From: Aquabacterium soli
GTDB lineage: Bacteria; Pseudomonadota; Gammaproteobacteria; Burkholderiales; Burkholderiaceae_C
Length of the DNA stretch: 64,000 nucleotides
Direction: 5' to 3'
Assembly (NCBI RefSeq): GCF_003933735.1
Contig: NZ_RSED01000001.1
Span: 62,001 to 126,000, forward strand
Both the position numbers and the translations under genes were made by a program. Each line of letters opens with the position of its first letter. Positions within the stretch are counted from its first letter, which is position 1. The notes below the pieces were generated by a model, which saw nothing but the letters and a program-made list of their open reading frames with translations, ran no database searches and was not told the DNA's origin. Positions 42,253-64,000 of the stretch are shown here, in pieces.

Positions 42253-42984
42253 ATGCGCATAGCGGTACTGGATGATGACCGGGATCACCTGGACCTGGTC
42301 TTGCAGATCATCGAGCGTGCAGGGCACGACGGCGTGGCGTTCTCCGAGGGCGCGGCGTTGGTGCGCCAGCTCCAGCGCGATGTGTTCGACCTGCTGATCG
42401 TGGACTGGCAGATGCCGGGGATGTCGGGCGTGGAGGTGGTCCGGTGGGTGCGTGCCCATCTGCAGGATCGCCTGCCCGTTCTCTTCGTGACGCAGCGCGA
42501 CGAAGAGCGGGATGTGGTCGAGGCACTGGGCTGCGGTGCCGACGATTACATGACCAAGCCGGTGCGCGTGCATGAGCTGAATGCCCGCGTGGCCGCACTG
42601 CTGCGCCGCACCTATCCCTCGTCGGCGCTGCCAGCGCTGGTGTTGGGGGGATACCGCCTGGACCTGGTGCGGCGCGAGGTGACCTACCAGGGCGAGGCCA
42701 TCGACCTCAAGCCCCGCGAGTTCGAGCTGGCGCGCTGCCTGTTCATGCAGCCTGGCCGCCTGCTGTCGCGCGATTACCTGTTGCAGACGGTGTGGGGCCT
42801 GGGCGCCCACGTGCCGTCCCGCACGCTGGACACGCACATGTCGTCCCTGCGCGCCAAGCTGGCCTTGCGCAGCGAGCGGGGCATGCGCCTGACGGCGGTG
42901 TACGGCCTGGGTTACCGGCTCGAAGAGGCCGTGGCCGACGATCCTCGCGGGCAACCCGGCTCCGAGGAGGCCCGATGCGCATGA
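42253..42984 (+). CDS. OmpR-family two-component response regulator
   Basis: The 243-residue regulator has a receiver domain (MRIAVLDDDRDHLDLV; phosphoacceptor Asp51 in LLIVDWQMPGMSG; Thr/Lys in VTQRD and YMTKPVRV) and a C-terminal winged-helix OmpR/PhoB DNA-binding domain (LKPREFELARCLFMQPGRLL, then DTHMSSLRAKL and YGLGYRLE). It is the first gene of a three-gene regulatory operon and overlaps the LysM/FecR gene by ten bases. The CHASE2 histidine kinase two genes downstream is its probable partner. Direct repeats suited to OmpR-type dimers lie upstream of the surface-protein genes. I chose ATG 42253 because the receiver strand begins there. Confidence 0.93.
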   Translation: MRIAVLDDDRDHLDLVLQIIERAGHDGVAFSEGAALVRQLQRDVFDLLIVDWQMPGMSGVEVVRWVRAHLQDRLPVLFVTQRDEERDVVEALGCGADDYMTKPVRVHELNARVAALLRRTYPSSALPALVLGGYRLDLVRREVTYQGEAIDLKPREFELARCLFMQPGRLLSRDYLLQTVWGLGAHVPSRTLDTHMSSLRAKLALRSERGMRLTAVYGLGYRLEEAVADDPRGQPGSEEARCA

Positions 42985-44666
42985 CCGGCCGCCGACAGGC
43001 TTTGGCCGCCGCCCTGGTGCTGGGGTGCCTGTGGCACCCGGTGGCTGCCGAGGACATGGTGACGCACGAGGTCCAGCCGGGCGACACGCTCATCGGCTTG
43101 TCTGATCGGCTGCTGGAGAGTCCTTCTCAATGGCCTGTGGTGGCCCGCCTGAACGCGGTGGTCCAGCCCCGGCGGCTCCAGCCTGGCAAGCGCCTTCGCA
43201 TCCCGGTGTCCCTGCTCAAGGGCCAGGCCCGCCCGGCCACGGTGCTGTATGTGCGGGGGCAGGTGCTCCGTGGACTGGGCCAGGCGCCCGGGCGCCCCGT
43301 GGGCATCGGCGACCAGCTCGATGAGGGCGAGGTGCTGAGTGTGGGCCCTGACAGCTATGCCAGCCTGCGCCTGCATGACGGCTCGCAGGTGCACGTGCAG
43401 GCCGGTACGCGGGTGGCACTGGACCGCCTGCGCCAGGTGACCGAATCGGGCCGGTCCAGCACCTCGCTGGAGCTGCAGCGCGGGCGGGTGGACACGCAGG
43501 TGACGCCCCAGCGTGGCGGCTCCCGTTTCGATGTGCGCACGCCGCTGGCCGTGGCCGGTGTGCGCGGTACACGCTTCGGTGTCACGGTGGATGCCGAGGG
43601 TGCGCTGACCTTGTCCGATGTCGTGCAGGGGCAGGTGGCGGTTCAGGCCCTGGGTGGCCGCACGGCGGCTGCGCCGGTGTCTGCAGGGCAGGGCGCCGTG
43701 GTCCGGCGGGCGATGGGGGGCGCGGCCGTGCGGCCCCTGCTGCCTGCCGCCGAGGTGTCCGCGCTGCCCGCCTTGGTGCAGCGTCTGCCCTGGACGCTGG
43801 CGTGGCCCTCCGTGGCAGGTGCCCGGGCCTACCGCGTGCAGATCGCCGAGGACGAAACCCTCACCCGCGTGCTGCTGAGCCGAGAGGTGGCGCAGCCCTC
43901 CGTCGTGGCGCCTGAACTGCCCGAGGGCGAGCATGTGCTCAACATCCGCGCCATCGACCCGGATGGGCTGGTGGGCCGCGAAGCGACCCGGCGCGTGCGC
44001 GTGAAGACGCAGCCCGTGCCACCACTGGCCCAGTCGCCCGGCCCTGACGAGGCCGTGCCCACGGGAGCGGTGGCCCTGGCCTGCACCGAGGTGCCTGAAG
44101 CCGCGGCCTACCGGTGGGAGTGGCAGAGGGGTGACGGCGCCTGGCCCGAGCCGGGTGCCCCGGCACGCCCCGGCGTGCAGGAGCGGACGGCGGCCGGCCC
44201 CTGTGCGTGGACGCTCGATGCCACCGAACCAGGGCGCTACCGCTGGCGCGTGGCCACACAGTGGCGGCGCGCGGATGGTTCGATCGACGAAGGGCCCTTC
44301 GGCGACGAGGCGCGCTTTGTGGCCGTGGTGCGGCCCGAGGCCCCCGAGCCGCTCATCGAGGTGGGCGAGCAGGTTCGCGTGCATTGGCAGGGCGCACCGG
44401 GCACCCGCTTCGACATCGAGCTGTCGCCCGACCCCACGTTTGCGCGCGACGTGCAGAAGCGCTCGGTGGGCTCGCCGGAGGTGCAATGGCCCATGCCCTC
44501 CTGGTGCCGTCCCTACTATCTGCGGCTGAGGGCCGTGTCGCCAGAGGGCATGGCTTCGGCCTTCTCACCGCCCCGGCTGCTGCATGGCGAAGCCGGTGTG
44601 TGCAGTGGTGATGGTCAGCCCGTGTCGACCGGACACGGCCTTCGCCTGGGGCACGGGAGGCCCTGA
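42975..44666 (+). CDS. exported LysM/FecR-domain protein
   Basis: The 563-residue protein has a signal peptide (RQALAAALVLGCLWHPVAAED), a LysM-like peptidoglycan-binding segment (about 27-80; HEVQPGDTLIGLSDRLLESP), then a FecR domain (about 120-230; YASLRLHDGSQVHVQAGTRV and FDVRTPLAVAGVRGTRFGV). The C-terminal half (about 260-540) contains two or three fibronectin-like beta modules (LPWTLAWPSVAGARAYRVQI; AAAYRWEWQRG; IEVGEQVRVHWQGAPGTRF). It probably sits in the periplasm, holding the peptidoglycan and sensing or transmitting a signal to the CHASE2 kinase whose TTG start follows its stop directly. GAGGAGG precedes ATG 42975. FecR proteins of this type are common next to CHASE2 proteins, but their signal is unknown. 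Confidence 0.87.
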   Translation: MRMTGRRQALAAALVLGCLWHPVAAEDMVTHEVQPGDTLIGLSDRLLESPSQWPVVARLNAVVQPRRLQPGKRLRIPVSLLKGQARPATVLYVRGQVLRGLGQAPGRPVGIGDQLDEGEVLSVGPDSYASLRLHDGSQVHVQAGTRVALDRLRQVTESGRSSTSLELQRGRVDTQVTPQRGGSRFDVRTPLAVAGVRGTRFGVTVDAEGALTLSDVVQGQVAVQALGGRTAAAPVSAGQGAVVRRAMGGAAVRPLLPAAEVSALPALVQRLPWTLAWPSVAGARAYRVQIAEDETLTRVLLSREVAQPSVVAPELPEGEHVLNIRAIDPDGLVGREATRRVRVKTQPVPPLAQSPGPDEAVPTGAVALACTEVPEAAAYRWEWQRGDGAWPEPGAPARPGVQERTAAGPCAWTLDATEPGRYRWRVATQWRRADGSIDEGPFGDEARFVAVVRPEAPEPLIEVGEQVRVHWQGAPGTRFDIELSPDPTFARDVQKRSVGSPEVQWPMPSWCRPYYLRLRAVSPEGMASAFSPPRLLHGEAGVCSGDGQPVSTGHGLRLGHGRP

Positions 44667-46490
44667 TTGCGCTGGCTCACCGTGCCGCTGCTGGGGGTGG
44701 CCTTGTTGCTGGGCTGGACGGATGGGCGCGGCCGGCTAGAGAGCGCGGCCATCGACCACCTGGCGGCCTTGCATGGTCGTCCGGCACCTGACGACATCCT
44801 GATCGTGGCCATCGACGAGCCCAGCCTGGCCGCGTTGGGCCGATGGCCCTGGCGCCGGACCGTGCATGCCGCCTTGCTGGACCGCCTGGGGCAGTCCGGT
44901 GTGCGCGGCGTTGGCCTGGACGTGATCCTGTCGGAGCCCGACACCGAGCACCCCCAGGACGATGCCTTGCTGGCAGAGGCGATGCGCGGCTCGGTGCCCG
45001 TGGTGCTGCCCTTGATCATGACCGTCGGTCCGGGCGGCCTGCCTCGGCCGGCCGAGCCTGTGCCGCTGCTGGCCGAGGCCGCGAAGGCCCTGGGGCACAT
45101 CCATGTCGAACTGGACGCCGACGGCGTGGCGCGCAGCGTGTTCCTCAAGGAGGGCACGCCAGGCCGATGGTGGAGCCACTTCTCGCTGGCGCTGCTGGGC
45201 ATCGCTGGCCAGGCGCCGCCCGAGGCGTCATTGCCCGGGCAGCGGCGGCCGGGCAATGACGCCTCGGGCGCGGGTTGGCAGCGGGACCACTGGACGCAGA
45301 TTCCCTATGCCGGGCCGCCGGGCCATTTCCAGCGCGTCTCGTATGTGGACGTGCTGGAGGGCCGCGTGCCGCCGCAGGTGCTGCGCGGCAAGCTGGTGCT
45401 GGTGGGCGCGACGGCGGTGGGCCTGGGCGATGCCTACCCCACCCCGATGGCCAGCCACGATGCCTTGATGCCGGGTGTGGAGGTGTCGGCCAACGTGGCC
45501 GATGCCTTGCGGCAGGGGCTGTCGCTGCGCCGGGCCGAACCGTGGGAGAACGCGCTGCTCGCGGTGCTGGTGACGGGGTTGCTGCTGGCCGGTGTGCGTC
45601 GCCTGTCACCCCGGCAGGGGCTGTGTCTGGTCGCGGCGGCCATGGCCGGCACGGCCGGCCTGGCCTGGCTGGCCTTGCGCCTGGGCGGCGTGCAGGTATC
45701 ACCCTTGCCCGTGTTCGGTGCGCTGGCGCTGGCCTATGCGCTGTCGAGCTGGCGGCGGCTGGAAGCGGCACGCCACCAGGAGGCCCTGCGGCGCGAGCAG
45801 GAAGCGGTATGGCGCTTCATCTCTCATGACATGCGTGCGCCGCAGGCCGCCATCCTGGCGTTGGTGCAGCGCTGGCGGGCCTCGGGCGCTGCGCCCGATG
45901 GCGAACTGCTGGGCCGCGTGGAGGCCCACGCCCGGCGCAGCCTGACGCTGGCCGATGACCATGTGCAACTGGCCCGGGCCCGCAGCGGTGGCATGAAGCA
46001 GCCGCTGGACCTGCGCGATGTGCTGGCCGATGCCGTGGACCAGCAATGGGCGCTGGCCGAGGCCCGCAGGATCCGCCTGACCTGCGAGCTGCCCGAGGGC
46101 GAAGCGCTCGTGCAGGGGGACCGCACCCTGCTGGTCCGAGCCTTGGTCAACCTGCTGGGCAACGCGGTCCGCTTCTCGCCCGATGGCGGCTCCGTGCGCT
46201 GCTCGCTGGCACTGCACGCCGGTGCGTGGTGGATGCGGGTGAGTGACGACGGGCCGGGCGTGCCGGCCGAGCTGCGGCCCAGGCTGTTCCAGCCCTTTGC
46301 CCAGGCATTGTCCGTGGATGACGAGGCTCGGCGAGCCACGGCGGACCAGGCGGCCACCGGCACGGGCCTGGGCCTGGTGTTCGTTCGGACGGTGGCCGAG
46401 CGCCATGGCGGCTGGGCCGATCTCGACGAGGGCCAGCGCTCAGACGCCGGCCCCGGGGCCTCGTTCTTCATCCGCCTGCCACGCGGCTGA
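44667..46490 (+). CDS. CHASE2-domain sensor histidine kinase
   Basis: The 607-residue kinase has an N-terminal membrane segment (LTVPLLGVALLLGW), an extracytoplasmic CHASE2 domain (about 22-290; DDILIVAIDEPSLAALGRWP, GVRGVGLDVILSEPD, VLVGATAVGLGDAYPTPM), three membrane segments (about 292-365), then a histidine-kinase core: His387 in WRFISHDMRAPQAA, N box NLLGNAVRFSPDG, G1 DDGPGVP, and G2 GTGLGLVFV. The start is TTG immediately after the TGA of the FecR gene, with GGGAGG upstream. It should phosphorylate the OmpR-type regulator at 42253. A 21-bp perfect inverted repeat (45218-45269) is inserted in frame in its CHASE2 region. Confidence 0.9.
   Translation: MRWLTVPLLGVALLLGWTDGRGRLESAAIDHLAALHGRPAPDDILIVAIDEPSLAALGRWPWRRTVHAALLDRLGQSGVRGVGLDVILSEPDTEHPQDDALLAEAMRGSVPVVLPLIMTVGPGGLPRPAEPVPLLAEAAKALGHIHVELDADGVARSVFLKEGTPGRWWSHFSLALLGIAGQAPPEASLPGQRRPGNDASGAGWQRDHWTQIPYAGPPGHFQRVSYVDVLEGRVPPQVLRGKLVLVGATAVGLGDAYPTPMASHDALMPGVEVSANVADALRQGLSLRRAEPWENALLAVLVTGLLLAGVRRLSPRQGLCLVAAAMAGTAGLAWLALRLGGVQVSPLPVFGALALAYALSSWRRLEAARHQEALRREQEAVWRFISHDMRAPQAAILALVQRWRASGAAPDGELLGRVEAHARRSLTLADDHVQLARARSGGMKQPLDLRDVLADAVDQQWALAEARRIRLTCELPEGEALVQGDRTLLVRALVNLLGNAVRFSPDGGSVRCSLALHAGAWWMRVSDDGPGVPAELRPRLFQPFAQALSVDDEARRATADQAATGTGLGLVFVRTVAERHGGWADLDEGQRSDAGPGASFFIRLPRG
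45218..45269. repeat. 21-bp perfect inverted repeat inside the CHASE2 kinase gene
   Basis: The arms 45218-45238 and 45249-45269 are exact reverse complements over 21 bases, with a 10-base loop (GCAGCGGCGG). The element is in frame and encodes PEASLPGQRRPGNDASGA, a loop-like insertion within the CHASE2 domain. Such a stable hairpin is unusual in coding sequence. Confidence 0.85.
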
Positions 46491-46535
46491 TCCCCCGCAC
46501 GCGCCTGCCGGCCCGCAGCCGGGCGGGGCCCCGCT

Positions 46536-46553
46536 TTGTCAACGATTGTCAAC
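46536..46553. promoter_or_regulatory. direct repeat TTGTCAAC-GA-TTGTCAAC, candidate OmpR-type site
   Basis: Two identical 8-base units are spaced ten bases apart (one helical turn), the arrangement bound by OmpR/PhoB-type dimers. They lie 123 bases upstream of the giant surface-protein ATG. A -10-like TAGAGT (46581-46586) follows, with a weak TGGTGC at -35 distance, which suits an activator-dependent promoter. Confidence 0.55.
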
Positions 46554-46675
46554 TCGCTGGTGCACCGAGCACGACGTCCCTAGAGTCCGCTCCCGGTGAG
46601 GAGGCCGGGTGGACCACACCCATGGAGCGCCATCCCGCCATCGTGATCGACAGCGTTTGACGAAGGTGGCCAGCA

Positions 46676-49600
46676 ATGATCGGCAAGACAGTGCCCGCGG
46701 GTGGGCAAGGCGAGGAACGTCCGTGGGCGGAGCAGCTGGTGCGCCGCGTGGCCGGTGCCGCGTTGCGGTGGATCGGCCCGGCCGCCGTGCTGGTGTCGGC
46801 ACTGGCTTCGTCGCCAGCCTGGTCGGCCCTGATCATCTCGGGCCTGCCTGACACCCCGGACCCGGTGTCCGCCGGTGGCGAGGTGACCTACACGGTGCGT
46901 GTGGCCGAATCGGGCGGCGCCCCGGTGTCCAACGCCTCGGTGTCGTTCGCGGTGCCGGGCGGTGGCGTCTACGCCGGGCATGGCACCTTGCCGGCGGGTG
47001 TGGCCTGCACCGGCATGGCCTCAGGCCAGAACGGTCCGGGCGTGCTCACCTGCAGCGGCTTGAACCTGAGCGCCAACCAGGTCGCCGAACTGCCGCTGCG
47101 CGTGCGGTCGACCGTGCAGGGCAGCCTGACCGTCAGCGCCACGCCCTTGCCGTCGGGCACGCCCCAGTCCCAGACGACCACGGTCAACAACGGCGCGGAC
47201 CTGCGAGTGGGCATCAGCGGCCCCGCCAGCGCTCCGGCCGGCAGTGCGCAGGCCTGGGTGTTCACCGTCACCAACGATGGGCCCGATGCCTCACCCGCCT
47301 CCACGCTGACCTACAACGTGCCGCCCAGCCTGGGCATCCCGTTGCCCCCGGCCGGCTGCTCCCTCGCCGGCAGCCAGCTCACGTGCGCCGTGGGCGCCCT
47401 GGGCGTGGGCGCGAACCGCACCGTGACCGTCAATGCCGTGGTCGGCGCCGGCAATGGCTCGACCCTGGCGCACACGGCGGACGTCACCGCGGGCGGTGGC
47501 GTGGGCGATGGGGTCTCCGGCAACAACGTGGCCACGCTCAACACGGTGGTGTCCGCTGGCAGCAGCCTGGCCATGGCCAAGACCAAGTCCGTGGCCGATC
47601 CGGTGGAGACCGGCCAGGCCTTCGACTTCCTGCTCGATGCGCGCTACAGCGGCGACTACCCCGCAGGCGTGCAGGTCACCGATGCCATGCCGGCCAACTT
47701 CTGCAAGAGCGCCCCGGCCAGCTTCAGCAGTGGCGCCTGGGCGTGCACCGCCTCCAGCGTGTGTCCAGCAGCGGGGCCGGCCATCACCTGCACCCGCAGC
47801 GGTTCGGGCAGTGCGGGCTACAGCCAATCCCTGGGTGTGATCACCGTGCCGGTGCAGGCCCTGACCGCTGGCGTGGGCGTGAACAACACGGCCCGCGCGA
47901 GCGCCCCGGGTGTGGTGAGCGCCGACGGCACCGTGGCGACCACGGTGATCGATCCGCGCTCGGACTTCCGTGCCAACAAGTCCAAGAGCTGGCCGCAAAG
48001 CGCCGTGCCGGTGGGGCAGGCATTCAACTACTCGGTCTCGACCACCAACCTGGGGCCCTCGGCCTTCCCGGCCTCGGGCGTGCTCACGCTGACCGACACC
48101 GTGCCGGCAGGCCTGCAGGTCAACGGCATCACGCCGGCCTCGGGCTTCGTGTGCGTGTCGTCGGGCGGGGCAGGCTTTCCGCAGGCCGGGCCGGTCACCA
48201 TCACCTGCACCAGCAGCGGCGTGGCCGTGGCGCTCAATGCCAGCACGGGCAACAACGTGATCAATGCGCAGGCCACGGCAACGGGCAGCACCCTGACCAA
48301 CAGCATGTGCGTGGGAAGCGCGGGTGGACCGCCGGACGATGTGGCGCCCAACAACTGCGCGTCGGTGGGCATCGAGCCTCAACTGGGCGCCGATCAGGCG
48401 GATGTGTCCACGCTCAAGCGCGTGCTGGGCCTGGGCAATGCCCCGGGCAACCGCCAGCAGGCAGGCGAGGCCGTGACGTGGGAGATCGAGATCGTCAACG
48501 CCGGCCCGTCCACCGCCACCGACGTGGCTGTGACCGACGTGTTCAACAATGTGTTCAATGCCAGTGGGGCCGATTACAGCGTGAGCACCGTCGCCGGTGG
48601 CGCGACCTGGGGCGGCTGCGCTCTGGCGGCGTCCGGCAGCAACGTGTCGCTGAGCGGCTGCACCATCACATCCCTGCCCGTGTGCACGGCCGGAAGCGAT
48701 TGCCCCCGTGTGCAGGTGAGCGTGCGCCACTTCGGCAACGGCAGCAGCGGTTCCGACGCCTTCCAGGTCAGCAACACCGCCTTCGCGCTGGCCCAGAACC
48801 AGGGCGACCCCGTCCTGCTCAACAACAACGCCAACAACAACACGCCGGCCCTGGCCTATTTCGAGGCGCGCACGGACGTGGCGGTGAGCAAGGCCGACAA
48901 CCCAGACCCGGTGCCGGCGGGGCAACTGCTGACCTACACCATCACGGCGCGCAACGTGGCGGCGACCAGTGCCAGCCGGGCCTTCAACGTCGTCGTGACC
49001 GACACCCTGCCGCTGGATGTGGTCTTCTTGTCCGCCACGCCCTCGGGTGGCGGCAACTGCGCCACCACGCCGGCCGCAGGCAGCATCACCACGGGCGGCA
49101 ACCGCTCGCTGGTGTGCGCCTGGGCTCAGATCGATCGCGGTGCGCAGCAGACCGTCACCGTGCGGGTGCGCCCGCTGGTGGCCACCAGTGTGGCGGGTGG
49201 CGGCACGGGCAGCATCTCGAACAGTGTGAGCATCGCGACCGACACGCCCGAAGTGGCGGGTGGCACGGCCAACAACACGGCCAGCCAGCCCACGGCCGTG
49301 AGTTCGCCCACCTATGACCTGATCATCAACAAGGTGGACGATGTCGACCCGGTCGATGTGGGCGACGACGTCACCTACACGCTGACCGTGACCAACAACC
49401 GGCCCTCCACTGCCGAGAACCTGGTGCTCACGGACAGCCTGCCTGCCGGGGCTGGTGCGCCCACCTTCGTCGAGGTGGTGGCGCCCCTGCCCGCCGGCGT
49501 GGCCTGCAACACCGCTGGCGTGTCGCCTGGCGTGGCGGGCGGCAACATCGTCTGCACGATCGCGCAACTGGGCGGCAGTGGCTCGGGCGCCACCGGCGAG

Positions 49601-52600
49601 GCTTCATCGGTGCAGGTGCGCGTGAAGCTGCGTGGCCAGGCCAAGGGCACGTTCAACAACGTGGCCACGGTGGCCTTCGCCAACGTGGCGCTGGATGCGC
49701 TGGATCCGCAAGGCAACAACACCGCGACGGAGCCGAGCACCTTCCGCCTGAAGGCGGACGTGCAGGTGGTGGCCAAGCGCGCGGTGCAGTCCGGCACGGC
49801 CACGACCATCACGCAGGTGCCCTACAACGCCAGCTTCGACTGGTTGGTGGAGCTGCGCAACAACGGCCCGCAGGCGGCCGAGCAGGTGGCCGTGGCGGAC
49901 AACCTGCCTGCCGGCCTGGTGTTGGCGGGCCCGCCATCCCTGGCCGTGACGAGCGGCACCTTTGTGCCGCTGGCGCCCACGTGCACGGGTGTGGCCGGTG
50001 GCTCCAGCGTCGGCTGCGCCATCGACAGCATGCCTGCCAACGGCACAGCCACGCTGCGCGTGCCGGTGCGTTTCAGCGGCACACCGGCCGATGGCACGGT
50101 GGTGAGCAACACGGCCAGCATCGTGACCACAGGCTCGGGCGACACCAATGGCGGCCCTGATCCGGCGGCAGGCAACAACTTCAACAGCGGCAGCGTCACC
50201 GTGCAGACGGCCTTGCTGGCCGGCCTCGTGTACGTGGACACCAATGGCAATGGCGCGCCTGACACAGGCGAGCGCGGCATCGAAGGCGTGCTGCTCACCT
50301 TGACCGGCAGCGCGCAGGACGGCAGCACGGTCAGCCGAACGGCCACCACGGGCGCCGACGGGCGCTACTTCTTCCCCGGCCTGCCGCCCTCCAACGCCAC
50401 GGGCTACACCATCACGCAAAGCCACCCTGCAGCCTATGTCGATGGACAGGACAAGGCTGGTCAGGTCAATGGCACGCCCACGGGGACGGCGGGCAACGAT
50501 GTCATCACGGGCATCGTCTATGCCAACGGCACCGGCACCAACGGCGATGGATTCGACTTCGGCGAGGTGGGCGCCAGCGTGGCCGGCCAGGTCTTCAACG
50601 ATGCGAACACCAATGGCTCGCGCGAGCCGGGCGACCTGCCACTGGCTGGCGTGAGCCTCACGCTCACCGGCACCGATGCCAGTGGCCGTGCCGTGAGCCG
50701 CACCACCCAGACCACGCCCGACGGCCACTACCGCTTCAGCGACCTGCCGGCGGCCGATGCCAGCGGCTACCTGATCACTGAAACCCAGCCGGCCGGCTAT
50801 GACCAGGGTGGCCAGACGCCGGGCTCCATCGGCGGCACCAGCCCTGTGGCCAACCAGCTGCGCGTGCCCTTGACGACCCCTGGCACGCAGGCCACCGGCT
50901 ACGATTTCTTCGAGCGCACGCAGTCGCCATCCTCGCTGTCAGGCCGCATCTGGCGTGACCGCGACCACGACCGTGCCCGGTCGGGCGACGAGTCGCTGGT
51001 GGGCGGCTGGACGGTCGAGCTGCTGGGCTGCCCCGGTGGCACGCCTGGCTGCGCCTTGGATGAGCTGACGGTGCTGGCCGCCACCACCAGCGCTGCCGAT
51101 GGCAGCTACCGCTTCGACCAGCTGGTGCCGGGCGACTACCAGGTGCGCTTCCGCTCACCCGCCGGACAGACGGTAGGCGGAGCCTGGCCCACGGACCCGG
51201 TGCAGAACGCGACCGGCGGCCCCCACCCGACCGTGCCTGGCATGGCGACGCGCGCGCTCGTGCCGGTGAGCGTGGGGGCGGGCGTGGCCATCGTCAACCA
51301 GGACCTGCCGCTGGATCCCAGTGGTGTGGTCTACGACAGCCTGAGCGCGCAGCCCGTGCCCGGCGCCACGGTGACGCTGACCGGCCCCGCCGGCTTCGAT
51401 GCGGCGCAGCACCTGCTGGCCGGCGGCGCTGCCGTCACCACGGGCGCAGACGGCTTCTACCAGTTCTACCTGCTGCCCGGCGCCCCGGCAGGGGCCTACC
51501 GCCTGACGGTGACGCCGCCCGCCGGGTATGGCCTGTCGCTGACCCATCCCGCCGCAACCGGCCCGCTGGACATGCAGACCTGCACCGCGCCTGCTGGCAC
51601 GGTCGACCCCGTGGCCGGCGACCCCTGCCTGGTGAGCGCTGCCTCACAGCCCACGGCGGGCAGCCTGCCGCCGTATTTCATGGACTTCAGCTTCCCGGGC
51701 TCGGCGGCGCAGAACGTGGTCAACAACCACATCCCGCTGGACCCTTCAGGGGGCAACAACGCCATCGAATTGCGCAAGACCACGTCCAAACTGACGGTTC
51801 GCAAGGGCGACCTGGTGCCCTACGTGATCACCGCGGTCAACACCCGCGCGCTGGCGCTGTCGGGCATCGACCTGGTCGACACCCTGCCACCTGGCTTCAA
51901 GTATGTGCAGGGCTCGCTGACCGTGCAGGCCTTGCCCTCGGGCCCGGTGCTCAAGGCAACGCCGACCGTGCAGGGCCGCCGCCTGACCGTGCCGGGCCAG
52001 GCCTTCGCGCCCAACCAGACCTTGCGCCTGGCGATGGTGCTGGGCGTGGGCACTGGCGTGGGCGAAGGAGACTACGTCAACGTGGTGCAGGCCGAGCAGG
52101 GGCAGGGTGGTGAGCGCCTGTCCAACGTGGCCGCGGCCACCGTGCGCGTGGTGCCCGATGCCTTGTTCGATTGCACGGACGTGATCGGCAAGGCCTACGA
52201 CGACCGCAACGCCAACGGTTACCAGGACGAGGGCGAGCCCGGCCTGCCCAACGTGCGACTGGCCACGGTCAACGGGCTGCTGGTCAGCACCGATGCGCAA
52301 GGGCGTTACCACATCGCCTGCGCGATGGTGCCCAAGGAGGGCACGGGCAGCAACTTCGTGCTCAAGCTGGACGAGCGCACCTTGCCCTCGGGCTACCGCG
52401 TGACCACGGACAACCCGGCCAGCGAACGCATGACGCGCGGCAAGCTGGTGAAGGTGAACTTCGGGGCGACGGTGCACCGGGTGGTGCGCCTGGCCCTGCG
52501 CGGCGCGGCGTTCCAGCCTGGACAGGCCGCGCTGCAGGCGGGTTTCGATGCGCAGCTCGGCGAGGCCCTGCGCGAGCTGGCCGAGCGCCCATCGATCCTG

Positions 52601-52774
52601 AGGCTGGCCTACCAGCGCGCGGTCGATGAGGAACCAGGCCTGGCCGAGCGGCGCGTGGCGGCGCTCAAGGCCGAGGTGCTGCGCCGCTGGCGCGCACTGG
52701 GGCATGACCGCGGACAGGCCCTGTTCAACCTGGACATCGAGGTGGAGCTGAACGCGGCTCCGGCGGCCCCATGA
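46676..52774 (+). CDS. giant DUF11/SdrD-B-repeat surface protein
   Basis: The 2032-residue protein has a long signal sequence (about 1-51; WIGPAAVLVSALASSPAWSA). It then has about eight DUF11-type beta modules (about 52-1175), recognised by repeats such as PVPAGQLLTYTITARNVA, DVGDDVTYTLTVTNNRPSTA and VTDTLPLDV. Next are about four SdrD-B/Cna-B-like modules (about 1180-1690; VYVDTNGNGAPDTGERGIEG, VFNDANTNGSREPGDLPLAG), one more DUF11 module (about 1698-1830), and a last SdrD-B module (KAYDDRNANGYQDEGEPGLP). The C-terminal 90 residues (AFQPGQAALQAGFDAQLGEA, then LAERRVAALKAEVLRRW) look like a degenerate OmpA-type domain. No sortase motif is present, as expected in a Gram-negative. It overlaps the outer-membrane protein gene by ATGA. 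Function is probably surface adhesion or structure. Confidence 0.9.
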   Translation: MIGKTVPAGGQGEERPWAEQLVRRVAGAALRWIGPAAVLVSALASSPAWSALIISGLPDTPDPVSAGGEVTYTVRVAESGGAPVSNASVSFAVPGGGVYAGHGTLPAGVACTGMASGQNGPGVLTCSGLNLSANQVAELPLRVRSTVQGSLTVSATPLPSGTPQSQTTTVNNGADLRVGISGPASAPAGSAQAWVFTVTNDGPDASPASTLTYNVPPSLGIPLPPAGCSLAGSQLTCAVGALGVGANRTVTVNAVVGAGNGSTLAHTADVTAGGGVGDGVSGNNVATLNTVVSAGSSLAMAKTKSVADPVETGQAFDFLLDARYSGDYPAGVQVTDAMPANFCKSAPASFSSGAWACTASSVCPAAGPAITCTRSGSGSAGYSQSLGVITVPVQALTAGVGVNNTARASAPGVVSADGTVATTVIDPRSDFRANKSKSWPQSAVPVGQAFNYSVSTTNLGPSAFPASGVLTLTDTVPAGLQVNGITPASGFVCVSSGGAGFPQAGPVTITCTSSGVAVALNASTGNNVINAQATATGSTLTNSMCVGSAGGPPDDVAPNNCASVGIEPQLGADQADVSTLKRVLGLGNAPGNRQQAGEAVTWEIEIVNAGPSTATDVAVTDVFNNVFNASGADYSVSTVAGGATWGGCALAASGSNVSLSGCTITSLPVCTAGSDCPRVQVSVRHFGNGSSGSDAFQVSNTAFALAQNQGDPVLLNNNANNNTPALAYFEARTDVAVSKADNPDPVPAGQLLTYTITARNVAATSASRAFNVVVTDTLPLDVVFLSATPSGGGNCATTPAAGSITTGGNRSLVCAWAQIDRGAQQTVTVRVRPLVATSVAGGGTGSISNSVSIATDTPEVAGGTANNTASQPTAVSSPTYDLIINKVDDVDPVDVGDDVTYTLTVTNNRPSTAENLVLTDSLPAGAGAPTFVEVVAPLPAGVACNTAGVSPGVAGGNIVCTIAQLGGSGSGATGEASSVQVRVKLRGQAKGTFNNVATVAFANVALDALDPQGNNTATEPSTFRLKADVQVVAKRAVQSGTATTITQVPYNASFDWLVELRNNGPQAAEQVAVADNLPAGLVLAGPPSLAVTSGTFVPLAPTCTGVAGGSSVGCAIDSMPANGTATLRVPVRFSGTPADGTVVSNTASIVTTGSGDTNGGPDPAAGNNFNSGSVTVQTALLAGLVYVDTNGNGAPDTGERGIEGVLLTLTGSAQDGSTVSRTATTGADGRYFFPGLPPSNATGYTITQSHPAAYVDGQDKAGQVNGTPTGTAGNDVITGIVYANGTGTNGDGFDFGEVGASVAGQVFNDANTNGSREPGDLPLAGVSLTLTGTDASGRAVSRTTQTTPDGHYRFSDLPAADASGYLITETQPAGYDQGGQTPGSIGGTSPVANQLRVPLTTPGTQATGYDFFERTQSPSSLSGRIWRDRDHDRARSGDESLVGGWTVELLGCPGGTPGCALDELTVLAATTSAADGSYRFDQLVPGDYQVRFRSPAGQTVGGAWPTDPVQNATGGPHPTVPGMATRALVPVSVGAGVAIVNQDLPLDPSGVVYDSLSAQPVPGATVTLTGPAGFDAAQHLLAGGAAVTTGADGFYQFYLLPGAPAGAYRLTVTPPAGYGLSLTHPAATGPLDMQTCTAPAGTVDPVAGDPCLVSAASQPTAGSLPPYFMDFSFPGSAAQNVVNNHIPLDPSGGNNAIELRKTTSKLTVRKGDLVPYVITAVNTRALALSGIDLVDTLPPGFKYVQGSLTVQALPSGPVLKATPTVQGRRLTVPGQAFAPNQTLRLAMVLGVGTGVGEGDYVNVVQAEQGQGGERLSNVAAATVRVVPDALFDCTDVIGKAYDDRNANGYQDEGEPGLPNVRLATVNGLLVSTDAQGRYHIACAMVPKEGTGSNFVLKLDERTLPSGYRVTTDNPASERMTRGKLVKVNFGATVHRVVRLALRGAAFQPGQAALQAGFDAQLGEALRELAERPSILRLAYQRAVDEEPGLAERRVAALKAEVLRRWRALGHDRGQALFNLDIEVELNAAPAAP

Positions 52775-55700
52775 GTGCCTTCGCCGACCACCTCCCGTCA
52801 TCCCCGATCCAGACAACCCGTCCGAGCATCAGCATGAAGCCCATCCGTCCTTCCCGCACCCTGATCGCCCACGCGGTGGTGCTGGCCTGCCTGTCGGCCG
52901 GCGGTGCCCTGGCCCAGGACGCACCATCGCGCGCCGTGGGAGCCGATGCCATCGACTGTGCCCGCAGCGACCGTGGGCGCATGCACGGCCACTGCACCGA
53001 AGATGCGCGTGCGGTGGAGATCACGGGCGCACAGCGCCTGCCCGAAACGGGCGAGCGCGAGCTGCCCAGGTTGACCGTGCTGCTCGGTGACGAACGGGCC
53101 GTGCCGGGCGACCGGGCGCCCTTCACCGCTGCGCCCCAAGGCGCAGCCAGCACGGGCGCTCGCGAGCACCAAGACCGCCATGTGCCGCGCTTCGATTCCG
53201 GCGAGGACCTGCTCAAGCCGCAGGACCGTGCACGGCTGGACGCCATCGTGGCGCAGGTGAAGGGGCAGGCCGGCCTTCGCTTCGAGGTGGTGGGCCACAC
53301 CGATGTGCAGCGCATCAGCCCCGCCCTGCGCCAGCGCTTTCCCGACAACCAGGCCCTGGGCCTGGCCCGCGCGCGCCAGGTGGCCGGCTACCTGGGTGAG
53401 CGCTTGGGCCTGGGGGCTTCGGCCTTCGAGGTCCGATCGAAGGGCCCGGCAGAGCCACTGGCCGCACCCGCCGATGACCGTGCCAACTGGCCCGCCAACC
53501 GCCGCGTGGAAGTGCGTGTGTATTGGCGTGACCCGGCCAGCGCCGTGGTGACGCCGCAGGCCCCGCCTGCCCTCGACCCCGGCGTGTGCGATGCCTTGAG
53601 TCCCCTGGCCATGGACGATGGCCAGCCCTGGCGCCTCACCGTGGACGGGCGATTGCCCGCTGGCGCCATGGCCACGGCCGGCGCCCTCGGCGCCGTGGCC
53701 GCCACCAGCGCAGACCGCCAGCGTTGCACCGATGTGCGGCTCGAGCATCACCAGCTCCGCCTGCAGTACGACAGCCTGTCCCAGCCACGCCGGCTCAACG
53801 GTGCGGCCTGGCCCACCACCGTGTCACCCGGGCAGACCGTGCGCTTCGCCGCGGACAGCAACTACCGCCTGTTCTTCCAGCGTGCCGAACTGCGCCTGTT
53901 CACGGCCAACGAGGCCCTGCAGCCGCAGCTGCTGGCGGTGGTGCCGCTGGATGGTGACCTGCGTGCGCAATGGACCGTGCCCCAGGACATCGCCGACAGC
54001 CTGGCGCAGCCATCACGCCTGTACTGGCGCATCCGCGTGACCGATGCGCAAGGGCGTTTCGATGAGACCGCCGACTTCACCTTGACGCTGGCCGAGCCTT
54101 CGCCGCGCCCCGACGCGGTGCCTGCCCCCGATGCCGAGCAGGCGCTGCGCCGTGCACTGGGGGAATCACGGCTGTCGATCGTCAACATCCCGCTGCAAGG
54201 CGGCACGGTGACCGCCAGCGGACAGGGCATCGCGGCCACGCAGCGCGTGAGGGCGCTGGGCCTGGCCGTGCCGGTGGATGCCCAAGGCCGCTTCGTCGTG
54301 CAGCAGTTGGTGCCACGCCAGGTGCACACGGGCGAGATCGCCGTGATCGAGCCCGATGGCCGTGCTCAGGTCTACCGCCGCGATTTCGAGATCCCGCGCC
54401 GCGACGGCTTCTTCATCGGACAGGCCGACCTGACCGTGGGCCGCAACCAGGTCAGCGGACCGGCCGCCCTGCTCACGCAGGACAGGAACCGCTACAACGG
54501 CGACACCTGGACGGAAGGCCGCATCGCCTTCTACGGCAAGGGGCAGCTCACCGACCGCTGGACCATCACCGGCAGCCTGGACACGCAGGAGCAGCCGCTG
54601 GAGGACCTGCTGCGCCGCCTGGACCGCAAGGACCCGACCTCGCTGCTGCGCCGCATCGACCCGGTGGATTCGTGGGCCACCTTCGGTGACGACTCCACCG
54701 CGATCGAGGACGCGCCCACGCAGGGCAGCCTGTACCTGCGCATCGACGATGGGCGCTCGCACCTGCTGTGGGGCGATTACAAGCTCACGCTCGATGGCAC
54801 CGCGCTGGCGCAGGTCAGCCGTGGCCTGTACGGGCTGCACGGCCGCTACGTGGGCGACGACAGCACCTCCTTTGGCGATGCCCGGCTGCGGCTGGACGTG
54901 TTCGCCGCACAGCCGGGCACCTTGGCCGCACGTGAAGACTTCCGGGGCACGGGCGGCTCGCTCTACTACCTGCGCCACCAGGACATCACGCGGGGCGCCG
55001 AAAAGGTGTTCGTGGAGGTGCGCGACCGCGACTCCAGCCTCGTGATCTCGCGCCGCCAGCTCGTGCCCTCGTCCGACTACGAGGTCGATGCGCTGCAGGG
55101 CCGCGTGCTGCTCAGCGCACCGCTGCCCGGCACCTCCGATGACAGCAGCATCGTGCGCACCGGCGGTTTGGCCGGCCACCCTGTGTACCTGGTGGTCGAT
55201 TACGAATACACGCCGCTGGCGGGCGATTTCGACAGCCTGGCCACGGGTGGCCGCGTGGCCTGGTGGGCCACGGACAGCCTGCGGCTGGGCCTGACCACCT
55301 CGCAACAGCAGCAGACCGGCGGCGACCAGCACCTCACCGGTGTCGACGTGACGCTGCGCCGCAGCGAGAACACCTACCTCAAGGCCGAGGCCGCGCGCAG
55401 CAGCGGTCCGGGTACGGGGCAGCTGGAATCGCTCGATGGCGGCTTCAACTTCACGCGCAACAACCCGCTGCCCGACCAGGGCCAGGTGGATGCCGGCGCC
55501 TGGCGCATCGAAGGCCAGCTCGACCTCAAGGAGGCCGGGCTGGCCGACCGAGGGCGCCTGGCCGCCTATGCGCAGCAGCGTGATGCCGGCTACTCGGCCC
55601 CCGGGCAACTGGCCGCGCGTGAATCGCGCCAGGCCGGCGTGAGCGCCACGACGCCACTGGGCGAGCGCGCCGAGTTGCGCCTGAAGGCCGACCAGCGCGA

Positions 55701-57111
55701 CGAAGACGGTGGTGTGGACACCCAGGCCGCCGAGGCGCAGATCGCCTTCAAGCTCGCTCCCCGCTGGTCGCTCACGGTGGGCGCGCGCCAGGATGACAAG
55801 CAGACCGATGCCTTGATCAGCAACCCGCTGGCGCCCGTGCTCAGCAACGTCGAAGGCGAACGCACGGACCTGAGTGCGCAGCTGGATTTCGACAGCCAGG
55901 CTGGTTGGGGCAGCTACGTGTTCCTGCAGGACACGGTGAGCCGCAGCGGCACGCGCCAGGACAACGACCGCGTGGGCCTGGGCGCCCGCTGGCGCGCCAC
56001 CGACAAGCTGGGCCTGCGCGCGGAGGTGTCGGGCGGCGATGGCGGTGCGGCCGGCAAGGCCGGCGTCGACTACCAGTACGACGACCGCTCCAGCGTGTAC
56101 ATGACCTATGCGCTGGACACCGGCCGCACCGACGAGAACAACCTCGGGCGCGGGGGCACGCTGGTGTCGGGCCTGAAGTCGCGCTTGTCCGATGGCCTGA
56201 ACGTCTACACCGAGCAGCGCCACTCCACCGGGCTGCAGGCCGGTCTCACACACGCCTACGGCGTGCAGTACGCGCCCGACACGCGCTGGACCTGGGGTGC
56301 CTCGTTCGAGAATGGCCGCATCGAATCGGAAACCGTGCAGGCCTTGCGCCGCGAGGCCGTGGCCTTCACCGCCGGTTATGCCGATGCGGACGTGCGCTAC
56401 AGCGGTGGCGCCGAGTACCGCTGGGACCGCTCGGCCACCGAGTCGCGCCGCAGCTGGCTGCTCAAGAACGCGCTGAGCGTGAAGGACGGCACCGATGGCC
56501 GCTGGGTGGGCAAGCTCAACGTGGCCGACAGCGACAGCAGCGCCGGGGGCTGGTATGCCGCGCGCTACACCGAGGCCATGGTGGGCTACGCCCTGCGCCC
56601 CGTGCTGGACGACAAGCTCAACGTGCTGTTCAAGGCCACCTGGCTGCATGACCTGTCCTCGCCTGGCCAGGTGGTGGCCACCGACGTGACGCAGGTGGCC
56701 GTGGTCACCGAAGGCATCGACTACCAGCAGCGCAGCCGCGTGCTGGCCGTGGACGCCACCTACGACCTCACGCCGCGCTGGACGGTGGGCGGCAAGCTGG
56801 CCTGGCGCACCGGCGAGCTGCGCGCGGCCCGCAACGACAGCGCCCCCTGGTTCAGCAGCACCGCGACGCTGGCCGTGGCGCGCGTGGACTGGAAGGTGGT
56901 CCGCCACTGGGACTGGCTGCTGGAGCTGCGCAGCCTGGAGGCCCGCGAGCTGGAGGACCGCAAGACCGGCTTCCTGACGGCCGCCTACTACCACGTCAAC
57001 GAGAACCTCAAGGTGGGCCTGGGCCACAACTTCACGGACTTCTCGGACAACCTCACCGACCTCAGCTACCGCAGCCGCGGCTGGTTCCTCAACATGCTGG
57101 GCAAGTTCTGA
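52771..57111 (+). CDS. OmpA-domain outer-membrane beta-barrel protein, 1446 aa
   Basis: The signal peptide is best read from [20 protein letters not shown] (internal ATG 52834), but the frame opens at ATG 52771 in an ATGA overlap with the giant gene; I give the outer limit. An OmpA-like peptidoglycan-binding domain (about 140-252) has [25 protein letters not shown] and [14 protein letters not shown]. After a beta-rich linker (about 455-560; [20 protein letters not shown]) comes a large barrel-like region (about 575-1446) with [37 protein letters not shown] and many alternating aromatic strands. It ends in [11 protein letters not shown], a classical C-terminal Phe barrel signal. It is probably the outer-membrane anchor or export partner of the giant protein; this is inferred from coupling. 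Confidence 0.9.
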
Positions 57112-61731: not shown

Positions 61732-61829
61732 GGACGTATGCGCCCGTGTGCGCACGGTGCCGCGCGAGCCTCTGAAAAACAACCGTCACCCGACGCGCAT
61801 CACGCTCCGGCGTGAGGGGGACCCGGGCG

Positions 61830-64000
61830 TTGAGCGTGTACCGATCGATCCGACAGACCCTGCTGGCAGACCACCAGATCCCGATGGACATGCGCCATTG
61901 GCGGGAGCGTCTGCTGTCGGCCATCCTCTCGGTGGCCTTGCTGCTCGGGGTGGTGGCCGCGGTGCCCAGTGCCATCGTGGCGTTCCACCAGGGGCACCCG
62001 TCGGTCGCCGTGATGGACATCGTGGCGCTGGCCTGGGTGGCCTTTGTCTGGCGCCGCCGCAGCCTGGACTATCGCTTGCGAGCGTGGAGCCTGCTGGCGC
62101 TGCTGTACCTGGTCGGTGTGTGGCTGATGCTCACGGTCGGGCCGGTCAGCCAGGTCTATCTGCTGGGGGTGCCCGCCATGGCGGCGCTGCTGCTGGGCAT
62201 GCGCCCGGCCTTGCTGGCGCTGGCGCTCAGTGCACTGACGCTGCTGGTGCTGGGCTGGCTGGTCGATGCGCAGTTCCCCACGCCAGGCTTCGAGCACCAG
62301 CCCCTGGTCAAGTGGTCGGTGGTCACCGTCAACTTCGCGTTCGTGGGCGCGATGGTCACGCTGTCTTGCGCGGCCTTGCTGGCGGGGCTGGAGCGCACGC
62401 TGGACAAGCACCGCGATATCGCGGCTTCCCTGAGCGCGGCCAACGAGGAGCTGCACCTGACCGGGGCGGCCGCCGCCCGCATCAATGACCTGGTGATGAT
62501 CACGGCGCGCGACGCGGACACGCCGCCGCATGCCCGCATCGTCTTCGTCAACGAGGCCTTCCTCACGCGCACGGCCTACGAGCGCGGCCAGGTGATGGGC
62601 CGACCGCACACCTTGCTCTATGGCCCCGATACCGCGGCCGAAGACCGCGCGCGTGTCGACGACGCCCTGCGCTCGGGCTCGGCCCTGCGCATCGAACTGG
62701 TGGCCCATGACCGCCATGGGGGCGCCTTCTGGCTGGAACTGGACATCACCCCCATCCTGGACGAGCACGGCTTTGCGCGCCACGTGGCCTGGGTGGCCCG
62801 CGACATCGGCAGCCGCAAGAAGGCCGAGGCCCTGATCTGGCAGCAGGCCCACTACGACAGCCTGACCGGCCTGCCCAACCGGCAGCTGCTGCGCCAGCGG
62901 CTGGAGCAGGCCCTGGCCGCCAGCGCGCGCGACGGCCACACCGTGGCCTTGCTGTTCATCGACCTGGACCACTTCAAGGAAGTCAACGACACGCTGGGCC
63001 ACGACCTGGGCGACCTGCTGCTGGCGGAGGCGGGCCGCCGCATCCGCCAGTGTGTGGGCGATGCCGACACCGTGGCACGGCTGGGCGGCGACGAGTTCAC
63101 CGTGGTCATGCCCGGCCTGGTCGATGCCGACCGCATCGACCAGGTGGCGCGCGACATCATCGCCAGGCTGGTGCAGCCGTTCCGCCTGCGTGGCGAACGG
63201 GCCTATGTGTCGGCCAGCATCGGCATCACGCAGGCCCCGCGCGACGGCACGGCCATCGAATCCCTCTTCAAGCAGGCCGACCAGGCCTTGTACGCGGCCA
63301 AGGACGCGGGCCGCCGGCGCCTGTGCCATTTCACGGCCGAGATGGAGGCCGCCGCACGCCTGCACCTGCGCGTGGCCACCGAGCTGCGCAGCGCCCTGGA
63401 CGATGGCCAGCTCAGCGTGGTCTACCAGCCCATCGTGGACCTGGCCACGGGCGAGGTCCACAAGGCCGAGGCCCTGCTGCGCTGGCGCCATCCTGTGCTG
63501 GGGCCGATCGGCCCTTCGGTGTTCATCCCCATCGCCGAATCCAGCGGCCAGATCGACGAGATCGGCGACTGGGTCTTCCGCCAGGCGGCGGGGCAGGCCC
63601 TGCGATGGCGCTCGCTTTTCCATGCCGATTTCCAGATCAGCGTCAACAAGTCGCCCGTGCAGTTCCGCGACAGCGGGGCCGCGCGGCTGGACTGGCCCGC
63701 GCACCTGCATGCCATCGGCCTGCCGGGCCATGCCCTGTCGGTGGAGATCACCGAGGGCCTGCTGCTCGATGCCAGCGACGAGGTGATCGAGCGGCTCGGG
63801 CGTTTGCGCACCGCGGGCATGGCCGTGTCGCTCGACGACTTCGGCACGGGGTACTCATCCCTGTCCTACCTGCAGCACTTTCCGTTCGATTTCCTGAAGA
63901 TCGACCAGGCCTTCGTGCGCGACCTCACGCCCGGTTCGACCGCCATGGTGCTGTGCCGGTCCATCGTGGCCATGGCGCACGACCTGGGCATGAGCGTGAT
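61830..64000 (+). CDS. membrane PAS-GGDEF-EAL cyclic-di-GMP protein, 3' end outside window
   Basis: The protein runs off the window end (more than 720 residues). About five to six N-terminal membrane segments (LLSAILSVALLLGVVAAV; LLALLYLVGVWLMLTV; AALLLGMRPALLALALSALT) form a MASE-like sensor. A PAS domain follows (about 225-345; IVFVNEAFLTRTAYERGQVM), then GGDEF (about 347-510; HYDSLTGLPNR, FIDLDHFKEVNDTLGHDLGD, active site ARLGGDEF) and EAL (about 525 on; EALLRWRHP, VEITEG, LDDFGTGYSSLSYL, KIDQAFVRDL). Both catalytic signatures look intact, so it could make and degrade cyclic-di-GMP. TTG 61830 is chosen because AGGGGG precedes it; ATG 61884 in the same frame lacks one. Confidence 0.9.
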   Translation, partial: MSVYRSIRQTLLADHQIPMDMRHWRERLLSAILSVALLLGVVAAVPSAIVAFHQGHPSVAVMDIVALAWVAFVWRRRSLDYRLRAWSLLALLYLVGVWLMLTVGPVSQVYLLGVPAMAALLLGMRPALLALALSALTLLVLGWLVDAQFPTPGFEHQPLVKWSVVTVNFAFVGAMVTLSCAALLAGLERTLDKHRDIAASLSAANEELHLTGAAAARINDLVMITARDADTPPHARIVFVNEAFLTRTAYERGQVMGRPHTLLYGPDTAAEDRARVDDALRSGSALRIELVAHDRHGGAFWLELDITPILDEHGFARHVAWVARDIGSRKKAEALIWQQAHYDSLTGLPNRQLLRQRLEQALAASARDGHTVALLFIDLDHFKEVNDTLGHDLGDLLLAEAGRRIRQCVGDADTVARLGGDEFTVVMPGLVDADRIDQVARDIIARLVQPFRLRGERAYVSASIGITQAPRDGTAIESLFKQADQALYAAKDAGRRRLCHFTAEMEAAARLHLRVATELRSALDDGQLSVVYQPIVDLATGEVHKAEALLRWRHPVLGPIGPSVFIPIAESSGQIDEIGDWVFRQAAGQALRWRSLFHADFQISVNKSPVQFRDSGAARLDWPAHLHAIGLPGHALSVEITEGLLLDASDEVIERLGRLRTAGMAVSLDDFGTGYSSLSYLQHFPFDFLKIDQAFVRDLTPGSTAMVLCRSIVAMAHDLGMSV

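Follow-up and report, generated by a model that had tools for sequence, protein, structure and literature searches.

A giant DUF11/SdrD_B protein and its OmpA-barrel partner form a conserved gene pair, encoded in Aquabacterium soli beside a BiofilmReg-type signalling operon

Introduction

The window analysed here, a stretch of 64,000 nucleotides from Aquabacterium soli (contig NZ_RSED01000001.1, positions 62,001 to 126,000; coordinates below are counted from its first letter), harbors five neighbouring genes for a response regulator, a LysM/FecR protein, a CHASE2 sensor histidine kinase, a giant surface protein with DUF11 and SdrD_B repeats (the giant) and a protein that joins an OmpA domain to a predicted outer-membrane barrel (the barrel protein). 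The locus raises the question whether these genes form one system in which a cell-wall-bound sensor controls the synthesis of a very large surface protein and of its exporter or anchor, as was proposed in the original prediction made from the sequence. Database comparison placed the emphasis on the giant/barrel pair; in the original prediction a signalling operon that is already known and an uncharacterised pair had been treated as equally new. No literature on this barrel family or on the combination of a DUF11/SdrD_B protein with an OmpA-barrel partner was found in a search of titles and abstract openings that left subscription journals mostly outside its scope.

Conservation of the giant/barrel pair

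The giant and barrel genes form a conserved pair across the loci examined. With a profile (A1) built from eight barrels, the family was detected in 40 of 300 Burkholderiales genomes and 37 of 299 Pseudomonadota genomes, which amounts to 74 different genomes with three common to both samples. Since mostly three candidates were scored per genome, additional copies and weakly similar members may have escaped detection. The locus set comprised 78 loci, namely 76 stretches (one of them the window's own) from 68 genomes, plus L037 and L038; barrel matches in G197, G430, G467, G481, G505 and G516 and at a second place in G475 lie outside it. Most fetched stretches cover 15 kb upstream and about 1.8 kb downstream of the barrel (mean 17.7 kb, and 19.7 kb for the controls). 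A DUF11/SdrD_B partner was present at every one of the 78 loci, in agreement with the predicted co-occurrence: it is fused to the barrel in 34 cases (33 open reading frames (ORFs) and one more, L147, that a contig end truncates), encoded upstream in 40 and downstream in 4. The genes overlap by four bases in 20 of the 40 loci with the partner directly upstream; ORF starts in this survey were set mechanically, and overlaps beyond -80 were therefore not taken as real. By comparison, 40 control stretches from the same genomes lacked barrel and DUF11 matches altogether, and two of them had SdrD_B-like matches. On a quick tree of the 78 barrels the fused and split forms require four changes, one of which is owed to L147, scored as split.

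Both parts are also found in the plasmid collection, from which six records were examined: in Eleftheria, Nitratireductor, Sulfitobacter, Acinetobacter haemolyticus (fused) and Vibrio campbellii, and with a weaker barrel score in the cyanobacterium Kovacikia. The giant beside the barrel on the plasmid of Sulfitobacter sp. S223 (L238, record 68909-88285) is encoded by a coding sequence of 19,377 bp, corresponding to about 6,458 amino acids. Small DUF11 ORFs of about 150-480 amino acids, often two or three, lie upstream of many fused giant-barrel genes (L165-L172 and others).

The giant protein and its C-terminal module

The giant has an apparent signal peptide, judged by eye, and among solved structures it matches staphylococcal SdrD and, weakly, UafA. 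DUF11 was renamed CLIPPER after an isopeptide bond had been solved in a Gram-negative adhesin (PMC12617251), and the giant shares the hallmark of such fibrillar adhesins, tandem DUF11 units carrying the Lys/Asp/Asn positions. These are present in five of the nine DUF11 units of the window protein according to the alignment; a count by eye that takes in unaligned lysines gives seven of nine, and they are absent from the first two units. Isopeptide bond formation and a surface location of the giant are thus predicted from its domains.

A SdrD_B-like module of ca. 100 amino acids is located near the end of split giants and in front of the barrel in fused relatives. It was detected in 42 of apparently the same 300 Burkholderiales genomes, including all 40 barrel genomes, with up to 17 candidates scored per genome. 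The original prediction hinged on giants not frequently lacking the barrel gene; the outcome was in its favour, as the module occurs without a barrel match in only two of these 42 genomes, G192 and G051 (the latter with weak repeats), at most three barrel candidates per genome being scored in this comparison. Because the module model derives from 39 barrel loci, it would miss giants with another end. Behind the module, the tail of split giants of the window's type is distantly similar to OmpA (21-row profile), and four loci have a recognisable OmpA domain at this position.

Some genomes encode several giants. Five paralogs were found in G313 and three in G170 (L222, L228-L232), each genome having one barrel match. 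Between these two genomes the C-terminal 750-800 residues of the giants are 42-58% identical, as compared to 37-44% for the preceding parts. A contig end of genome G200 (C19, L234) carries the C-terminus of a second giant and, after it, an OmpA ORF and a kinase-like ORF that overlap in different frames; no barrel match was found in L234, which is apparently a partial copy of the pair.

The barrel protein

Beyond the OmpA domain, searches of the barrel protein against Pfam and NCBIfam gave no secretion family, in keeping with the original prediction, which knew of no named secretion type with such a composition. At E<=1 Pfam reported OmpA and a weak NtrZ match only, and the ca. 900 barrel residues matched no Pfam family. 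The presence of a large barrel, earlier put at about 870 residues, is backed by a confident AlphaFold2 model (predicted local distance difference test score 83, predicted template modelling score 0.82), which points to some 36-38 strands and an insert resembling a plug. In the structural comparison, which covers the VIA-align rows so that fold families outside these rows are possible, FimD ushers rank first and SprA, the 36-strand translocon of the type 9 secretion system, ranks lower; SusC and siderophore receptors are also among the rows. Sequence comparison of the whole protein with solved structures returned OmpA-type domains only. Profile A1 gave no match to solved structures, whereas a further barrel profile, A2, matched the Vibrio OmpT porin (4e-7 over ca. 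200 positions); a relation to this porin was considered and set aside, the match being read as generic barrel similarity.

The OmpA domain possesses the GHTD and RA motifs, with G, H, D and R invariant in a 17-row alignment, and presumably binds peptidoglycan. The nearest relatives of the barrel protein are those of CECT 9606 (87%), Caldimonas mangrovi (65%) and genome G041 (43%, from residue 140 on), and plasmid records label its relatives 'OmpA family', 'TonB-dependent receptor', 'outer membrane protein transport protein' or 'hypothetical'. A contig search with the barrel protein as query gave two loci only. Among 36 other genomes of the same genus (G001-G036, some incomplete) just G016 has the full-length protein, and the cluster thus looks accessory in the genus.

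The signalling genes

Contrary to the original prediction, which treated the signalling trio as no less new than the structural pair, block 1 is already known: it matches the published layout of the BiofilmReg operon (PMC5192318). This operon, described by Voronina et al. (2016) for B. contaminans, encodes a mostly CreB-type regulator, a LysM/FecR protein with a start codon internal to the regulator gene, and a CHASE2 kinase; in Burkholderia a DUF4136 gene is also present, and insertion of a plasposon in the regulator gene abolished biofilm formation (PMC5192318). The window trio has the same three genes in this order on one strand and the FecR start within the regulator gene, and its regulator is CreB-like. 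The NCBIfam scores of this regulator (PhoB first with 162 bits, CreB second with 153 bits) are both under the curated cut-offs, which for CreB is 273. Unlike the Burkholderia operon, the window trio has no DUF4136 gene directly after it. The window kinase has no PAS match, as the BiofilmReg paper reports for two strains, and the portions of that account covered here make no mention of a giant/barrel pair (PMC5192318). FecR and CHASE2 proteins co-occur in Campylobacterota too, there with CHASE2 adenylate cyclases (PMC9239204).

The HisKA domain of the kinase scores 17.2 bits, under the cut-off, though an H-box (FISHDMRAP) is visible. This kinase is the sole CHASE2 match in its genome; the FecR search of the same genome gave six matches, one of them at the locus.

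Organization of the locus

All five ORFs were recovered where they had been placed, with the expected domains in Pfam and NCBIfam (Table 1). The close packing of the signalling genes was borne out as well. The mechanical FecR ORF opens at GTG 42792, with ATG 42975 as the likely start, and the regulator stop at 42984 then gives the ten-base overlap; the TGA of the FecR gene directly abuts the TTG start of the kinase gene. The proposed ATGA overlap of the two structural genes is possible at 52771. However, no clear Shine-Dalgarno sequence accompanies this position, and a second Met at 52834 lies immediately before a stretch that resembles a signal peptide by eye; translation of the barrel gene may therefore begin at 52834. 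Similarly, the idea of a single module of ca. 15 kb holds for the presence of the five genes but not for their arrangement, since a gap of 185 bp between the kinase and giant genes divides the locus into two blocks, three signalling genes followed by two structural genes, rather than one tight operon.

Table 1. Features of the five-gene locus in window coordinates.
Feature	Position	Strand	Evidence and remarks
OmpR/PhoB-type response regulator (CreB-like), 243 aa	42253..42984	+	Response_reg 1.2e-24, Trans_reg_C 8e-19
LysM/FecR protein, predicted periplasmic	42975..44666	+	FecR 7e-16; LysM 22.1 bits, barely above the cut-off of 20.9
CHASE2 sensor histidine kinase, 607 aa, TTG start	44667..46490	+	CHASE2 9e-56, HATPase_c 8e-22
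Perfect direct repeat TTGTCAACGATTGTCAAC, candidate regulator binding site 5' of the giant gene	46536..46553	+	Putative function
Giant surface protein, 2,032 aa	46676..52774	+	DUF11 in 8 stretches (3e-64), SdrD_B in 5 stretches (1e-43)
Conserved C-terminal module of the giant, SdrD_B-like, ca. 109 aa; putative docking module	52169..52495	+	Docking presumed
C-terminal tail of the giant, distantly OmpA-like, without GHTD motif	52496..52771	+	hhalign probability 77%, E 2e-5
OmpA/barrel protein, 1,446 aa	52771..57111	+	OmpA 4e-9; start ATG 52771 (ATGA overlap) or ATG 52834
OmpA domain with GHTD and RA motifs	53188..53478	+	Pfam, alignment
Predicted outer-membrane barrel, ca. 900 aa, about 36-38 predicted strands	54406..57108	+	AlphaFold2 model
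Plug-like insert of short strands within the barrel	54886..55113	+	DSSP of AlphaFold2 model; 'plug' is a putative designation

The flanking genes look unrelated: upstream lies a weakly GntP-like permease gene on the opposite strand, and downstream are aquaporin-type and LrgB-type genes. A MASE11-PAS-GGDEF-EAL protein is encoded at 61812-63998, ca. 5 kb downstream of the cluster, and reaches the window end.

Association of the two blocks

The suggestion that the pair belongs with FecR-CHASE2 genes holds in a few genomes. All five genes form one compact run in the window, in CECT 9606 and on the Eleftheria terrae plasmid NZ_CP106953 (L236, 1-18292), and Caldimonas shows the set in part, with a kinase at the edge of the fetched stretch. 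In G200 the order is giant, barrel, regulator, LysM/FecR and CHASE2, the last gene being cut by the contig end so that the kinase part is not visible. The association is loose in G103, where LysM/FecR and CHASE2 kinase genes precede the pair, the response regulator gene lies about 2 kb further upstream and the trio is not compact. In G038 a regulator and a CHASE2 kinase are encoded upstream on the opposite strand. CHASE2 and FecR each occur in 4 of the 76 fetched regions, the window's own included, as against none of the 40 controls in either case.

The Eleftheria plasmid is typed as mobilizable, and about 0.8 kb downstream of its five-gene set the annotation includes a gene for an aminoglycoside adenylyltransferase. 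In the gammaproteobacterium G421 (L145, 1-18561) the giant and barrel genes are surrounded by LysM/FecR and three CHASE2 ORFs, one of which is a CHASE2-EAL protein of the cyclic di-GMP type.

The direct repeat lies between the blocks, about 120 bp before the giant gene. Allowing up to two mismatches, it occurs once in each of genomes G000 and G016; the reversed control pattern occurs not at all in G000 and twice in G016. The repeat is kept between the window and its close relative CECT 9606, where its surroundings are equally conserved, and is not visible in the alignment with Caldimonas. The possibility that it is an operator shared with the regulator's own promoter was rejected, as there is only one site per genome.

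Proposed function and alternative explanations

On balance we lean towards an arrangement in which an isopeptide-stabilised fibrillar adhesin is switched on by a FecR-CHASE2 sensor, and a dedicated giant barrel exports and/or anchors this adhesin via the conserved C-terminal module. The LysM/FecR protein on the cell wall and the CHASE2 kinase would sense an envelope or surface cue, leading to phosphorylation of the OmpR-type regulator, which would probably act at the block 2 promoter, where the unique direct repeat lies. Block 2 would then produce an adhesin of isopeptide-forming DUF11 (CLIPPER) and SdrD_B domains together with its presumed partner, a very large outer-membrane barrel with a plug, which OmpA would tie to peptidoglycan. 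The giant would leave the periplasm through this barrel, or at least be held by it, with the C-terminal module as docking element; in fused relatives the module is covalently joined to the barrel, and elsewhere one barrel seems to serve several giants. We tentatively consider a further possibility, in which Pseudomonadota have an unnamed secretion system with the barrel family as its translocon. This single-chain outer-membrane pore, of at least SprA size, would let whole isopeptide-locked Ig-like domains pass and would recognise its cargo by the module of ca. 100 residues. It would occur with a single partner, with several cargos or in fused form (a 'giant autotransporter'), and OmpA would brace it on peptidoglycan.

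Several observations weigh against the sensor-controlled, barrel-dependent adhesin. Barrel closure, pore width and strand number were read from DSSP alone, and the fold matches have high root-mean-square deviations (8.3 and 7.3 for FimD, with 342 and 322 residues aligned only). The giant's destination is one that we infer from its domains, and OmpA was not found at 35 of the 78 barrel loci. The trio was not seen at most barrel loci among the 76 fetched regions, though with only about 1.8 kb fetched downstream, trios placed like that of G200 would be missed. Response regulators (18/76 regions vs 12/40 controls) and kinases (13/76 vs 7/40) showed no general enrichment near the barrel, and generic two-component genes were for this reason rejected as a conserved part of the system. 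CHASE2 was located within 15 kb of the barrel in at least six of 69 genomes against 1.5 expected (P 0.004; P 0.017 if the two Aquabacterium genomes count once, four genomes remaining without Aquabacterium), but this test was post hoc, included the window, left out G197 and was based on the matches listed.

These points bear on the view that trio and pair are mere neighbours with no regulatory link, which we doubt. It would account for the 185-bp gap, which may hold a promoter of block 2's own, for the minority of linked loci and for the three changes that trio presence needs on the tree of the 78 barrels. However, the CHASE2 gene linked to the barrel is the genome's only CHASE2 match in G000, G016 and G103, the blocks occur in either order, and the repeat found once per genome in two genomes is situated between them. 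It is likewise rather unlikely that the barrel acts as anchor or receptor only, holding a giant that has crossed the outer membrane by another route. The OmpA domain, common in cell-wall anchors, fits such a role, and SprB-SprF and PorP-PG1035 provide precedents (PMC9143113). On the other hand, the predicted barrel is far larger than an anchor would need, and no exporter stood out beside the pair, a weak argument as chosen domains only were looked for.

An uptake channel of the TonB-receptor or SusC type, with the giant capturing the substrate, appears improbable: the plug-like insert of the model, the SusC and siderophore receptor rows and the label 'TonB-dependent receptor' of several plasmid relatives point that way, yet TonB-receptor barrel and plug domains of Pfam gave no match at E<=1 in the barrel protein and fusion to adhesin-type repeats would be odd for an importer. 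Slightly more improbable still is a cell-cell recognition pair like TraA/TraB of myxobacterial outer-membrane exchange, in which a polymorphic surface protein acts with an OmpA-barrel partner. This two-part make-up is alike in outline; TraA domains are not known to be DUF11/SdrD_B, and several giants per barrel match suggest cargo diversity rather than a single receptor.

If the barrel exports or anchors the giants, this would account for the display of very large isopeptide-locked fibres by many Gram-negative bacteria, and the family would be, beside that of SprA, the second lineage of single-chain barrels this large. A link to the BiofilmReg-type sensor would give that operon a plausible target.

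Comparison with known secretion and surface systems

The giant agrees with CLIPPER fibrillar adhesins in combining tandem DUF11 units with Lys/Asp/Asn positions and SdrD_B domains in one large repeat protein; the sorting domains named for these adhesins are Por_secre_tail, CHU_C and LPXTG, and the portions of that work covered here do not describe a barrel partner of the present kind (PMC12617251).

FimD ushers rank first structurally, with differences in sequence and make-up. Chaperone-usher systems handle polymerised pilins, whereas a single giant chain is encoded here, and the predicted barrel is larger than the FimD barrel of 24 strands. The Usher family of Pfam gave no match in the barrel protein or in genome G000, with a control match in E. 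coli. Type V secretion (autotransporters, two-partner secretion, intimin) is similar in that the passenger is fused to, or paired with, a dedicated barrel; autotransporter, POTRA/ShlB and intimin-barrel families of Pfam had no match at E<=1 in the barrel protein.

The type 9 system resembles the proposed giant/barrel system in several features. SprA is a single-chain barrel of 36 strands with several cargos that are recognised by a C-terminal domain (PMC10994853), and SprF is reported to bind the giant adhesin SprB (PMC9143113). SprA_N had no Pfam match in the barrel protein, and in the genome search for SprA_N the control genomes gave no match. The predicted very large single-chain barrel, the putative cargo recognition by a C-terminal module, the several putative cargos and the giant adhesin-like protein with a barrel partner recall these features; the fused cargo-barrel forms found in the family described here are a difference from the type 9 system.

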